Part shown: positions 4,695 to 27,450 of the stretch, piece after piece | Position numbering within the stretch: the stretch's first letter is position 1 | Layout: every line of letters begins with the position of its first letter | Notes under the pieces: model-generated | The model's database searches: none | Told to the model about the DNA's origin: nothing | The model's input: only the letters and a program-made list of their open reading frames with translations | IMG/VR virus record: IMGVR_UViG_3300037882_000953 | Location: 1-28,333 of that record | Strand: one strand, 5' to 3' | Length of the DNA: 28,333 nt | DNA from: a virus | Made by a program: the position numbers and the translations under genes

Positions 4695-6304
4695 CGTGAG
4701 CCCCCTAAAGAAAGTGTAAGCTCTAAAGAATCCAAAGCAAATTGTCCAAGAACACTTACCGCCACACTATCACCTTCTTTTCTACAATTATATGTTCTTG
4801 TATAAGAAGTAGACTCTACTGGGATCAATAATTCCGAAGATGATGTCATTGCTTGCAATGTTCCTTCAGAGACTCTGACACTAGAATCTCCAAATTGGCC
4901 TTCAATTTTTACTTCTTGCAGCTCAATCCTACGACTACGAACATACTTAAACTTCCCTAACATTATTACAGATTTAGTAGTATCAATTTGAGGTAAATTA
5001 AATGAAGGAAAGAGTACTAAACTAAATACACAAATATTGCCGGTATGGGCATTTATAACTCCAAAAGAAAGTTGTGCCGTTACAAAGTCCTGTACAATAA
5101 TAACATCTGTATGAGGATGTACTAATCTGCCATATCTACGTAAATGAGTGTCGTAAATAATTAATACATTGTATCTAGATTTACCGTTGACAATACTATT
5201 GCTAGTAGATACACAAATATATCTGTCATAGTAACTGTACACCTTAGCAGATACTACATGATTAGGAGTAATAGGTTGCAGTCGATTAGTACTGTAATCG
5301 TAAATGTGATCAGTTCGATTACTTCTTAAAAAGCTGCTTAGTTCCGGAGCTACTTGGGTAGCGGTAGTGTCTGAAAGAATTGAAAAATTATATGCGGCGT
5401 CATAAATCAATACTCGCCCACTATTCGGATCTTGCACTCCCACGGAATTTACAATGTTAGTATCACTAATCAATTCAAATTTCCAGGGGAACCTAGAATT
5501 ACCAGTATAGATTCCAGCACTTACCCCAACACGACTAAATAAGTAAAACCCAAAAGAAGTAGCATGTGAATAACTTAAATTGCCATAAAGCCCATTTGGA
5601 GTAGAACTGCCTGCTCCACTAACTAGTGATGGAACAAAATCTAATGGATTAGTTGTGGATGACCAGTAACAAGTCCCAGCAGCAGTAAACATTAGTAAAT
5701 AATTATAGCTGCCGCAAATGGTTACAATATCATTAAGAGTTACATGGGTAACGGATGCGGATACGTTAGTTAATACCAGGTTCCCAAATAACAGTTCTGC
5801 AGTATATAGATAGGTAACACCAGTATCTACTATGAGAACGTAACATACTCCTCTAACAATTGCAAAACTAATTTTACTATAACGATTTGGGTACGCTATT
5901 GCACCAACAAAAACAGGGAATGTCCATGCACCTGCCCCATAAGGGGCATAGCGATACTGCGCAGGAGATTGGATATAAATTAGCGTTCCAGTATATACAA
6001 TGTTATTTCCACCAGGCTCCAATACCGGAATTTGATTTACAAATACATTACCCGGGGAACTTGGATATGATGTAAGTGAATAGCTCTCATTTTTACCTAC
6101 ACTCTGATACCCATTAGCTGTAGGAATTACATTCTCTAAATAAATAGCTTGTGGAATACCCGCATCTTTCTGCTCTCCTTCAGGATCTACTCGCCGGTCA
6201 TAATTATTATCTGGGCCAGGAACAATAACAGTTGACCCTGCCAAGGAGATGGAGAGGGGAAAAATGGCTGAGGATAGATTAGCTCGGTAGGAGATTTGTG
6301 CCAT
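4691..6304 (-). CDS. Large tail/DNA-stabilisation-like structural protein (537 aa)
   Basis: The sequence is almost entirely short beta-strand-like segments rich in Tyr, Val, Ile, Asn and Ser with repeated turns, suggesting a beta-propeller or beta-rich virion protein. The N-terminus has an IPQAIYLENVIPTANGYQSVG-type segment (about residues 51-71), reminiscent of podoviral tail accessory proteins of the P22 gp10 type, in which a 'Pro-x-x-Tyr-Leu-Glu-Asn' phrase precedes the blades. P22 gp10 binds beneath the portal and keeps packaged DNA in place. Here the gene lies next to the tailspike, 11 bases after its stop, and overlaps the gp53-like gene downstream. The role is inferred from composition and position; it could alternatively be a tail hub or receptor-binding protein. 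Confidence 0.6.
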   Translation of the reverse strand: MAQISYRANLSSAIFPLSISLAGSTVIVPGPDNNYDRRVDPEGEQKDAGIPQAIYLENVIPTANGYQSVGKNESYSLTSYPSSPGNVFVNQIPVLEPGGNNIVYTGTLIYIQSPAQYRYAPYGAGAWTFPVFVGAIAYPNRYSKISFAIVRGVCYVLIVDTGVTYLYTAELLFGNLVLTNVSASVTHVTLNDIVTICGSYNYLLMFTAAGTCYWSSTTNPLDFVPSLVSGAGSSTPNGLYGNLSYSHATSFGFYLFSRVGVSAGIYTGNSRFPWKFELISDTNIVNSVGVQDPNSGRVLIYDAAYNFSILSDTTATQVAPELSSFLRSNRTDHIYDYSTNRLQPITPNHVVSAKVYSYYDRYICVSTSNSIVNGKSRYNVLIIYDTHLRRYGRLVHPHTDVIIVQDFVTAQLSFGVINAHTGNICVFSLVLFPSFNLPQIDTTKSVIMLGKFKYVRSRRIELQEVKIEGQFGDSSVRVSEGTLQAMTSSSELLIPVESTSYTRTYNCRKEGDSVAVSVLGQFALDSLELTLSLGGSR

Positions 6305-19016: not shown

Positions 19017-19105
19017 GCACCGATGGCGAAATAGGTAAACGCAGCAGATTTAAAATCTGCTATGTCTGACGACATTTATGGGTTCGAGTCCCATTCGGTG
19101 CACCA
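19017..19105 (+). tRNA. tRNA-Leu (anticodon UAA)
   Basis: The acceptor arms are GCACCGA (19017-19023) and TCGGTGC (19095-19101), followed by an encoded ACCA end. The anticodon arm has stem GCAGA/TCTGC around the loop TTTAAAA, with anticodon TAA. GGTTCGAGTCCC forms the T-arm. The long variable arm (TGTCTGACGACA) is that of a class II tRNA, so leucine is the right call. Length 89 bases. Such a tRNA would help translate UUA codons in the AT-rich genes around it. Confidence 0.95.
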
Positions 19106-21514: not shown

Positions 21515-22549
21515 ATGAAGATTCTATGCGCACTTTCATCCATCGAATTCGATTGTTCCCACTTTCCAGGAACATTCTATTCTCGTGAACTTCATCACCC
21601 AATCTTTTCATTGCCCCAGAAGAAACTATTGGCTGCAACATCCAAATGGTCATCAGGTGAATTAACCACTACCGATAGCTACCTATTGTTCTTATCGTTG
21701 CTGCGAAGCAGCGATTTGATCGACTGGCGTGTTCCTGTAATCCGTACAGAACAAACAGATTCCATAATCGCAAACAACATGGAATCTCTTCTGCGTACAG
21801 TTATCAAACTCAACACCGTATCTGACCCGCAGGAAATCTTTCCTCACTATGCAATCTCCCAAGATACTCGCACACTTTCCAATGTCCGCTATTGGATTGA
21901 GAATTGGCAACATGCATACGATGAACACAAATCAGGGTACAAATCTGCCCATGAATCAGCCGCACTAATCCGCAGGGAGAACGCACTAGCACGGATGATT
22001 AAGAATCCGCATCGTCCAATCTCTGCATATTCTGGGGAACTTTCCATCTGGGCCGCAACCGCAGGATCTTTCCCTACATTCCTAGTTTCTTCCCCATTCG
22101 GTTCCTCCTTCGGTCAGCAAATCACATGCGCCGAATTCTGGAAAGAGATCATCGTTCGCTGCACTAAAAACGATTACATCTTCAGCATCCCAGATGGTGA
22201 CCTGATCGAGCTAATCGAGCATTGCGAAGAAAACATTCCAATCGGCTCAATCTACTCTCATGCACTGTTCAAAATCCTGCGTGATGCGCAATCCAGAAAG
22301 CGAAATTTCCTAGATATTGGCGACCCAGATGTCAAAAGTTCCTACAGCCTAATCTCTGCGGGCGCCAGTGTAGAATCCGCCAACATGAAAGCATTGGTTG
22401 ATTCTGCACCTAGCGAAGAGCCAAAACTGGAGCAATATCCTAGCAGATTCGCATTCCAGAAAGCTAAGCTGCGTTGGGATATGGCAAAGAAGTATGGTAA
22501 AGATACGCCGGAGGCTGATGATGCGACCAGTACAGATGTCCCAATTTGA
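21515..22549 (+). CDS. Unknown large protein (344 aa)
   Basis: It is the largest gene before the helicase. It opens MKILCALSSIEFDCSHFPG, with mixed Cys and His, has a SNVRYWIENWQHAYDEH segment and a long helix LIRRENALARMIKNPHR near the centre, and ends in a Lys/Asp-rich tail (ATSTDVPI). No catalytic motif is visible. It may be a DNA-metabolism or replication accessory protein given its proximity to the helicase, but this is only a guess. It overlaps the next gene by 29 bases. Confidence 0.7.
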   Translation: MKILCALSSIEFDCSHFPGTFYSRELHHPIFSLPQKKLLAATSKWSSGELTTTDSYLLFLSLLRSSDLIDWRVPVIRTEQTDSIIANNMESLLRTVIKLNTVSDPQEIFPHYAISQDTRTLSNVRYWIENWQHAYDEHKSGYKSAHESAALIRRENALARMIKNPHRPISAYSGELSIWAATAGSFPTFLVSSPFGSSFGQQITCAEFWKEIIVRCTKNDYIFSIPDGDLIELIEHCEENIPIGSIYSHALFKILRDAQSRKRNFLDIGDPDVKSSYSLISAGASVESANMKALVDSAPSEEPKLEQYPSRFAFQKAKLRWDMAKKYGKDTPEADDATSTDVPI

Positions 22550-25810: not shown

Positions 25811-25996
25811 ATGAAAGTACTAATCGAAGGTTCTTTGCTTCATTTAGAAGCAACAGGAGAAGAATTGACAGAACTTCAAACTCTTATCGAATACTGTTGT
25901 GATAACAATCTTGCAATGGATAGTTTATATGAATACATTTCTAAACAGCTAAGACCTAAAATCGTCATCAAAACTAACGTGCCGACACCCCCTTGA
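25811..25996 (+). CDS. Unknown small protein (61 aa)
   Basis: ATG at 25811, four bases after the helicase stop; GGAATG lies upstream. The protein opens MKVLIEGSLLHLEATGEELTELQ and has mixed helix-strand character and a Pro-rich end. The stop TGA at 25994-25996 lies inside the -35 box of the next promoter. No family is recognised. Confidence 0.6.
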   Translation: MKVLIEGSLLHLEATGEELTELQTLIEYCCDNNLAMDSLYEYISKQLRPKIVIKTNVPTPP

Positions 25997-26021
25997 CACG
26001 CGATCCCCGACCTGTTATATT
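25993..26021 (+). promoter_or_regulatory. Near-consensus sigma70 promoter
   Basis: TTGACA (25993-25998), spacer of 17 bases, then TATATT (26016-26021). It is the clearest promoter in the window and drives the 204-residue gene; transcription should start near 26028. Confidence 0.85.
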
Positions 26022-26107: not shown

Positions 26108-26722
26108 ATGACCGATACCAACACCAGCGAAGTTAACACCAACGAACCGACCGTTCTGCAAAAGTTTGCTTTCCGTTTCAAGAAAGACAAGCTTGGCAAT
26201 AAGCGTGCGCCCGTTGAACTGAATCTGCCGGTGCCCACTATTGCTGGCATTGTTGATATTCTCAAGGCTGGCGGCAAGGAACTGGAACTGCTGAATGATG
26301 CCATTTATGGTGTTATCAAGTCGGTTGCTGGCGAAATCGTGGCTGAGAATGCTAACGTCAGCCAAGATACTTTCCCGGTTGCACAAGTTCTGTGGTCGGC
26401 TATTGCCAACATGCCGAAGGCGGAACGTGCTACTATCCCGCAAGAACAGTGGGATGGTTTTGTGCAAGATTATTTGGCAGTTATGCCTGGCCTGACTGGC
26501 AAGACTAGCGATCAGGTTGGTCTGGCTACGCAAATTTACCTGAAGAAGTTTGCAATGGTTAAGACCAACAAGCCGATTCTGGGCAAGCTGAAGGAACAAC
26601 TGGCCCTGTATGTGGAAACTCCGAATGCCGAGAACTTCTCGGATGTTCTGGAACTGCTGCTGCGCCGTGTTGATGCTTACCTGAGCGCAGAAGAAATGGT
26701 GATTGCTGCCGATAACATCTAA
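26108..26722 (+). CDS. Conserved phage protein of unknown function, highly expressed type (204 aa)
   Basis: ATG at 26108 follows TAGGAT with a spacing of 9. The protein starts with a Thr/Glu-rich tail, then FRFKKDKLGNKRAPVELNLPVPTIAGIVDIL (about residues 22-52), and later a segment with NMPKAERATIPQEQWDGF and LTGKTSDQVGLATQIYLKKFAMVKTNKPIL. I recognise this phrase set as a conserved hypothetical family in many podoviruses (a 'KKDKLGNKRPxVELxLPVPT' start). Codons are GC-biased against the surrounding AT-rich genes, as in the 226-residue gene. A near-perfect promoter and host-like codons imply abundant protein. The function is not known. Confidence 0.85.
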   Translation: MTDTNTSEVNTNEPTVLQKFAFRFKKDKLGNKRAPVELNLPVPTIAGIVDILKAGGKELELLNDAIYGVIKSVAGEIVAENANVSQDTFPVAQVLWSAIANMPKAERATIPQEQWDGFVQDYLAVMPGLTGKTSDQVGLATQIYLKKFAMVKTNKPILGKLKEQLALYVETPNAENFSDVLELLLRRVDAYLSAEEMVIAADNI

Positions 26723-27136
26723 AAGTTTGCTCCCTGTTGTAGTTCTTTACGTTCTAAGGTTGGCCTGAAATAATAGAGATTCCGTCATGCGTACATTGTA
26801 CGTCCCGCGGACTGGATCCAAGGTGAAGAGCCTCCAACAATGATTCGCTAGGACTCCCCAACATAGCAACATCCTGGGTACGATGTAAAACTGCCCAACC
26901 TGGATTAGATTGATAAGATCAGCTAACGTGATTAAATTTAGTGGTTAGTATGGTGGGACACGCAGCCGTAATACTAACTAGATCTTATCAATGTGATCCT
27001 GGACGCAATCCTTTCTAGTAACTACCTTTCTTCTGTTTTCTATCGGAGTGAGCAGGGGAAGTTCGGGGTTGGTTGCCAAAGCTAGAAAACGCCTGAGTTG
27101 CACAGGGTAGGATCACTTCAAATACAACATTACGCT
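26723..27136 (+). ncRNA. Candidate structured RNA in a gene-free stretch
   Basis: No credible gene lies here. Long-range complementary pairs nest: CCCTGT (26732-26737) with ACAGGG (27102-27107); 26750-26756 with 27083-27091, and TTGGC (26760-26764) with GCCAA (27075-27079); CCCCAAC (26856-26862) with 27061-27068 (one bulge). Inside is a perfect 12-bp stem ATTGATAAGATC (26909-26920) with GATCTTATCAAT (26981-26992), enclosing GTTAGTAT/ATACTAAC (26944-26951, 26971-26978). GTGATCCT (26993-27000) can also pair with AGGATCAC (27109-27116), and GTTTTCTA (27035-27042) with TAGAAAAC (27083-27090), giving competing folds. It matches no RNA family I recognise. It is probably carried on the message from 25993. 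Confidence 0.5.
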
Positions 27137-27382
27137 GTGCGTCTTTACGAACCAATATGGCAAGAATTAAAACAAACTGGCACAGCTAAGCTGACTGCCA
27201 ATAGAGTACTGCACCGTAGAATTATTAAAGCAGTAATCAAAGAGAAGTGGCTAGATGTAGGATACAAATTCCAAATCTATCCGCAGCATTGCAGAGTAGA
27301 GTACGAACGATCTAACAGCATCATAACATTCAGATTGGTAAGATATGTTATTGGCTCTGCGATCACAGTATCTGATATCTAA
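27137..27382 (+). CDS. Unknown small basic protein (81 aa)
   Basis: The frame has no ATG. Candidate starts are GTG at 27137 or TTG at 27098; the TTG would overlap the structured RNA's 3' end, so I choose GTG, although neither has a clear Shine-Dalgarno site. The protein contains RLYEPIWQELKQTG, then a RVLHRRIIKAVIKEKWLDVGYKF segment, typical of a small basic fold, then strands. It probably is a real gene from its protein-like sequence, but start and function are uncertain. Confidence 0.55.
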   Translation: MRLYEPIWQELKQTGTAKLTANRVLHRRIIKAVIKEKWLDVGYKFQIYPQHCRVEYERSNSIITFRLVRYVIGSAITVSDI

Positions 27383-27398
27383 GTCCGCATAGCGGACT
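27382..27398 (+). promoter_or_regulatory. Short stem-loop after the 81-residue basic protein gene
   Basis: AGTCCGC (27382-27388) and GCGGACT (27392-27398) form a 7-base stem with a 3-base loop, starting inside the stop codon. It stands just before a second hairpin at 27406-27421, and together they could mark the end of a message. Confidence 0.5.
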
Positions 27399-27405
27399 AA
27401 TCCTA

Positions 27406-27430
27406 GCCCTCTTATGAGGGCATTTCTGTT
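27406..27430 (+). terminator. Rho-independent terminator candidate
   Basis: GCCCTC (27406-27411) pairs with GAGGGC (27416-27421) over a TTAT loop and is followed by ATTTCTGTTT, a broken U-tract. It is the best terminator-like structure on the plus strand, though its weak tract makes termination partial. Confidence 0.5.
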
Positions 27431-27450
27431 TCCGAAGAAAGGAAATAATC

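Follow-up and report, generated by a model that had tools for sequence, protein, structure and literature searches.

A Compact Pseudoknot and Clade-Specific RNA Modules in the Gap between Two Genes of a Tailed Phage

Introduction

A gap of 414 nt at positions 26723–27136 separates two genes of a tailed phage, which carries terminase, capsid, and Dda-like helicase genes and is represented by a 28,333-base IMG/VR virus record; the whole of this record was analyzed here and is referred to as the window. A first-pass annotation described long-range nested pairing in the gap and regarded it as a possible undescribed structured RNA. The locus raises the question of whether such an RNA exists, how it is folded, and what it could do between two genes.

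Flanking Genes and Overall Fold

The gene 5′ of the gap (26108–26722, + strand) encodes a 204-residue protein whose supposed conservation was verified in 47 IMG/VR loci besides the window, at 30–94% identity. This protein was the anchor for comparing the loci of the gap, and the nearest relative (L001) has a version 94% identical to that of the window. The gene 3′ of the gap (27137–27382, + strand) starts with GTG and encodes 81 residues. Neither protein matched a family in Pfam and PHROG. A protein-coding reading of the gap itself was rejected, since no credible frame was found, in agreement with the gene-free state assigned to it before; a TTG-started extension of the 81-residue gene (27098–27136) is not shared by its homologues, which begin at or near 27137. 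The gap and both flanking genes probably form a single transcription unit, because a sigma-70-like promoter, TTGACA-17-TATATT (25993–26021, + strand), identified as a consensus match at 11 of 12 positions, lies 5′ of the 204-residue gene, and a terminator-like hairpin followed by a T-rich tail (27406–27421, + strand), present in L001 and L002 as well, lies 3′ of the 81-residue gene as the probable end of the unit. No strong internal promoter was detected in the gap.

As read from its sequence and those of its relatives, the gap is a structured RNA consisting of separate modules in a row, which are module E, pseudoknot A, a long hairpin, and module C, and compensatory changes among relatives favor every one of them. 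It belongs to no Rfam family. The structured character proposed by the annotation was hence retained, whereas the single large nested RNA was replaced by a mosaic of small self-contained modules. The 414 nt as a whole folded only weakly better than shuffled sequence (z = −1.3, equaled by 8 of 100 shuffles), the outer pairs proposed at 26750–26764/27075–27091 and 26856–26862/27061–27068 are imperfect, and L001 keeps their 3′ half without the 5′ half, so that one large nested RNA was rejected. The long hairpin (26902–26999, + strand) is a strong fold instead, for which −36.8 kcal/mol and z = −5.9 were evaluated over 26902–27000, matched by none of 200 shuffles. Its 12-bp perfect inverted repeat (26909–26920/26981–26992) and the pair within it exist as described, and a repeat as long arose in only 9 of 2000 Markov-resampled controls. 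Two 8-bp matches, 26993–27000/27109–27116 and 27035–27042/27083–27090, are also present; the former had been taken to conflict with other pairs, and actually closes module C as a conserved stem. When compared across the anchor-gene loci, the gap is a mosaic in which modules are swapped freely and the length varies from ~90 to >600 nt, with no overall architecture conserved among the relatives.

Structure and Pairing of Pseudoknot A

The annotation had overlooked an H-type pseudoknot (A; 26870–26897, + strand), which is better conserved and more widely spread than any other part of the region. The window copy reads CAUC-C-UGGGUA-C-GAUG-UAAAAC-UGCCCA, in which S1 (CAUC/GAUG, 26870–26873/26882–26885) and S2 (UGGGUA/UGCCCA, 26875–26880/26892–26897) are accompanied by L1 (C26874), L2 (C26881), and L3 (UAAAAC, 26886–26891). 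In its general form, S1 comprises 4–6 bp of nearly free sequence, L1 is a single C, S2 comprises ~6 bp of the type UGRRYA/UGYYCA, L2 is one nucleotide with few exceptions among 242 contexts, and L3 is A-rich and ends in AAAC. A one-nucleotide L1 across an S2 of about 6 bp is the classical geometry to cross the deep groove.

Pairing was examined in a non-circular manner by using a pattern restricted to letters that are either unpaired or invariant (CCU, A.G, and AAACUG), on both strands of 432 kb of protein-fetched loci. This search, whose count is conditioned on neither S1 nor S2, gave 32 distinct sequences, 30 of which form both stems, and 179 of 192 free pairs were kept as compared with a mean of 122 and a maximum of 135 after shuffling. 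The two misfits are at window position 22405, within a listed reading frame, and at its counterpart in L001. Among 178 sequences from all loci, the three free S1 pairs were kept in 176, 176, and 141 cases, with A-U, C-G, G-C, and U-A all common; these S1 counts are unconditioned, whereas S2 counts in this set are conditioned, since most loci of this larger set were retrieved by a pattern fixing parts of S2, and kinship among relatives inflates the counts in general. A finder that demands pairing detected 264 matches in 1.70 Mb versus 5 in Markov controls. An alignment of 24 sequences also agrees with the pseudoknot, which is not independent evidence because they were preselected by a pairing-requiring finder.

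Genomic Position and Spread of Pseudoknot A

Comparative analysis of its contexts shows module A to be a 28-nt H-type pseudoknot that follows the stop codons of numerous phage genes with no relation to one another and also occurs immediately 5′ of tRNA genes. The genes 5′ of it belong to 42 unrelated protein families, including Hsp20 and a clamp-like protein. It typically begins 5–20 nt past the stop codon, with an overall spread of 5 to >140 nt; for the 116 non-redundant contexts no farther than 60 nt from a stop, this distance starts at 4–5 nt, peaks at 5–8 nt, and has a median of 12 nt, and the next start follows such copies at a median of 112 nt. The window copy is located 147 nt past its stop, unlike this usual closeness. 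A same-strand tRNA gene was found within 150 nt 3′ of A in 25 of 243 contexts (24 at 3–14 nt and one at 88 nt), while none of the 243 had a tRNA gene preceding A; for most copies the next gene is protein-coding, not a tRNA gene. Arthrobacter phage Molivia, for example, has the order ssDNA-binding-protein gene, A, ~3 nt, and tRNA-Gly, and Nostoc phage NMeng1 has A and then a tRNA. In Roseobacter phage SIO1 and Lentibacter phage ICBM1, A is behind ribonucleotide reductase. Many phages of the set, such as those of L083, L104, and similar loci, have a 360–411-residue protein (phrog_1221) ending in VQNVMQIA or alike, then A, and often tRNA-Asp (GUC). The window has a tRNA-Leu (UAA) gene at 19017–19105, near which no copy of A was found.

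The exact pattern TCCTGRRCATGANNTAAAACTGYYCA was detected in at least 120 IMG/VR contigs and in 13 GTDB contigs in 257 Gb, while 28 Gb of E. coli gave no match and 7.3 Gb of plasmids gave nothing full-length. Pseudoknot A appears to be phage-bound, because of its absence from E. coli, the lack of a full-length plasmid match, and the small number of GTDB contigs. The hosts of cultured phages with A include cyanobacteria, Roseobacter, Paracoccus, Mycobacterium, Arthrobacter, Vibrio, Lactobacillus, and Streptococcus. The fold was confirmed by inspection of the sequence in cyanobacterial phages (Synechococcus S-EIVl, S-RIM4, and S-H35, and Nostoc NMeng1), in Paracoccus ParMal1 and ParKuw1, Lentibacter ICBM1, Roseobacter SIO1, and Vibrio D456, and further in Mycobacterium Labelle, Arthrobacter Molivia, Lactobacillus phiAQ113, Lacticaseibacillus P7.1, Streptococcus Javan271, and a human-gut phage. 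Matches in Chaseviridae of Erwinia and E. coli are less regular, and a match in a Lak phage (H74) was rejected on inspection, as it has no pseudoknot. In three GTDB contigs (L171, L174, and L179; Pelotomaculum, Auribacterota, and Desulfotomaculaceae), tiny frames beginning with MLGKRYMLRPVAHCKGGC or MKRYTLRTVAHCSEGC lie just 5′ of A and end within it; they resemble short cysteine-containing peptides, possibly precursors of modified peptides. Pseudoknot A had no match in Rfam 15 and no description in the open-access papers searched, where the sequence itself was also looked for, so that it is apparently undescribed.

Clade-Specific Modules and the Start of the 81-Residue Gene

Module E (26726–26868, + strand) forms a stem that closes on itself, contains internal CCC loops, and carries inner arms that vary; homologous elements were found in eight loci (L002, L044, L021, L031, L009, L025, L105, and L168). 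Its stem varies with pairing kept, as judged by eye, from UGUUG/CAACA in the window to UGUUA/UGAUA, UGCCUUC/GAAGGCA, and UUGUCA/UGACA. In L021, L031, L009, L002, and L168, this module includes a hairpin whose loop, CAUAAAAAC, is conserved while its stem covaries (CAAUCA/UGGUUG, GAUCA/UGGUC, and AGGUCA/UGGCCU). The place of the long hairpin is occupied by differing stems in L001, L002, L008, L009, and L131.

Module C (26993–27116, + strand) consists of P1 (26993–27000/27109–27116), the invariant GGACGCAAUCC, P2 (27012–27018/27082–27088), and the hairpin P3 (27092–27106), and occurs in seven phages (the window, L001, L002, L008, L009, L044, and L131). P1 and P3 are common to most homologues in single-sequence folds. 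Over these two elements in the seven phages, 100% of cells are paired and eight pairs have double changes, including all seven counted pairs of the closing stem. A covariation value of 0.623 was obtained, as compared with 0.256 for shuffled and at most 0.147 for slid controls, on an alignment whose stems and hairpin were joined by hand and in which one loop base was omitted in L009 and L131. Other relatives instead have module B, a long stem around GGUAACUU...GAUCAAUGCAGAAA. When modules C, E, and B were sought in the collections beyond the clade, only clade members were returned, and these modules appear clade-specific as far as tested.

More distant relatives have another version of the gap. 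Soon past the stop of the anchor gene, L004 (5631–5705), L046, and L047 have a candidate hammerhead-like ribozyme, CUGAUGA...GAAAC with three stems and a GUC or GUA site; the core and the three stems were recognized by eye in L004 and L046, and L004 scored 18.5 bits in Rfam against a cutoff of 48.5. L004 (~5760–5920), L046, and L047 also share a further structured module, GGAACCACAGUAACC...AAACCUUGCAGUAACGUGCUGUGAGGUU, which is strongly conserved and gave no Rfam match at the gathering score.

The 81-residue gene had been described as lacking a good ribosome site, which holds for nearly all of 36 relatives, in which no Shine–Dalgarno (SD) sequence precedes its start and the median SD energy was 0.0 vs −3.9 kcal/mol (p = 1 × 10⁻⁶). 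The start is also predicted to be buried, as its unpaired probability had a median of 0.09 vs 0.47 (p = 4 × 10⁻⁶), and a mean of 0.23, as compared with 0.39 when the upstream sequence was shuffled (p = 0.003); these values were computed by nested folding, which ignores pseudoknots, on relatives that are not independent. Different relatives bury the start by different structures, and it is open in L024 and L043. Owing to the absent SD and the buried start, the clade-specific modules probably gate translation of the 81-residue gene in this folding model.

Proposed Role

The best explanation of these observations, which we hold tentatively and short of even confidence, is that A serves as 3′-end punctuation of processed phage mRNA, while the clade modules hide the 81-residue start. 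An RNA-level role is proposed for A because it is a generic element, which occurs behind unrelated genes and before tRNA genes and has no fixed ribosome spacing. A tRNA gene behind A leaves no initiation role for a next gene there, and makes RNase P a natural cutter. The gap would be an intercistronic stretch of one message containing the promoter, the 204-residue gene, the independently folding modules, the 81-residue gene, and the terminator. This polycistronic message would be cut 3′ of A, by RNase P where a tRNA adjoins and by other nucleases elsewhere, and A at the new 3′ end may then block 3′-to-5′ exonucleases and stabilize the upstream message. The long hairpin and module C, or module B in relatives, would hide the 81-residue start, so that the 204-residue protein is produced in bulk and the 81-residue protein only after opening or processing of the RNA. 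The distance between the window copy and its stop, and the fact that most copies precede protein genes, speak against this punctuation. Bacteria moreover use simple hairpins at 3′ ends, and a pseudoknot may have a more specific partner. A broader proposal, in which phage pseudoknots are a widespread general 3′ cap, an exonuclease-resistant RNA of DNA phages, combined here with interchangeable modules that switch on an SD-less gene by RNA processing, is rather doubtful.

The region could instead be chiefly a regulatory leader of the 81-residue gene, which keeps the start shut until it is opened by a ligand, a protein (perhaps the 204- or 81-residue protein), a passing ribosome, or cleavage, or which directly recruits ribosomes in an IRES-like manner; we consider this possible and rather unlikely. 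It would account for the general lack of an SD and for the burial of the start by varied structures, among which the long stem of module B extends its 3′ strand into the ATG in L010, L022, L018, L028, L038, and L196. The loop CGCA of module C also has its complement, UGCG, at the start or close by in the window, L001, L002, L009, L131, and L008; such a pairing common to six phages remains a suggestion, because these are the closest relatives. On the other hand, A in other phages precedes tRNA genes and also occurs remote from starts, an extra ORF lies between A and the 81-residue gene in L023 and L028, and the partner that the partition function predicts for the window start region (27135–27144), the apical loop at ~26957–26966 of the long hairpin, is unconserved.

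Against punctuation of processed mRNA stands also a separate noncoding RNA of the GOLLD/ROOL kind, released and acting in trans, to which the length of ~400 nt, the abundant structure, the phage origin, and the tRNA gene elsewhere in the window would fit. It is improbable, given the variable length, the swapped modules with no conserved architecture, and the lack of a strong internal promoter. The annotation had matched the gap to none of GOLLD, ROOL, and HEARO, and their covariance models indeed gave no match at gathering score in the window and 16 relatives, and none at E ≤ 10 in 26600–27450.

A similarly low probability is assigned to an action of A on ribosomes or RNA polymerase, by which it would insulate cistrons from post-termination ribosomes, or pause or modify the polymerase. 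The position near stop codons is consistent with this, as are the copies in other phages, which number up to eight, are clustered, and mostly share one strand (the relatives of the window mostly have one copy). The distance from the stop is nevertheless not fixed, and a tRNA gene offers no ribosome entry that could be insulated.

Stimulated recoding at the upstream stop, either frameshifting or readthrough as in luteoviruses, is very unlikely. A has the compact H-type geometry with short L1 and L2 and an A-rich L3, and is often 5–10 nt from the stop, but the spacing is broad, the stops are mostly TAA (118 of 164), and there is nothing to read into in the 24 cases where a tRNA gene directly adjoins. 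The luteovirus type would have a heptamer 5–9 nt 5′ of the fold and a continuing frame; no consistent slippery heptamer was noticed by eye in the listed contexts. It is just as unlikely that A acts as a riboswitch that binds a ligand in the manner of preQ1-I or SAM-II, since the likeness of A to the small H-type preQ1-I pseudoknot with its A-rich L3 is outweighed by single-nucleotide L1 and L2 that leave no binding loop, by unrelated surrounding genes, and by the lack of an Rfam match, preQ1-I included, even in a permissive search at E ≤ 10 of the window copy and that of L055.

If punctuation of processed mRNA by A is correct, one 28-nt fold common to phages of cyanobacteria, proteobacteria, actinobacteria, and Gram-positives marks the ends or cuts of messages. 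It would provide a predictable landmark for phage transcriptomics, a DNA-phage equivalent of viral exonuclease-resistant RNAs, and a compact RNA-stabilizing part. As A is absent from Rfam 15 and the open literature searched, annotation pipelines would miss it.

Comparison with Known Systems

The frameshift pseudoknot of BWYV is of the H-type with very short L1 and L2, a C in L1, and an A-rich L3 ending in AAAC before S2. Pseudoknot A shares this topology, the short loops, the C of L1, and the AAAC end of L3 with the luteovirus type, but differs in being behind stops and before tRNAs, in having no evident slippery site, in its S2 of ~6 bp, and in its occurrence in DNA phages. The preQ1-I riboswitch (RF00522) is likewise a small H-type pseudoknot with an A-rich tail; it has an L2 loop with a preQ1-binding C, in place of which A has a single nucleotide in nearly all contexts, and A has no common downstream pathway. 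The intercistronic RNase III hairpins of T7 are repeated structures that define stable 3′ ends of phage mRNA, and A is similarly a repeated intercistronic structure, which differs in being a pseudoknot and in its spread over unrelated phages.

In T4, T2, and RB69, the gene 32 pseudoknot serves autoregulation on the 5′ side of a single gene, whose start follows 67 nt downstream (PMC3014915). This element and A are both pseudoknots of phage mRNA, whereas A is behind many unrelated genes. GOLLD and ROOL are large structured phage RNAs of no known function that are found near tRNAs (PMC12286853). The gap RNA is also structured and of phage origin, and A in other phages is near tRNAs as they are; in contrast to one defined large RNA, the gap, which has no sequence match to them, is assembled from small modules as a mosaic whose length varies.
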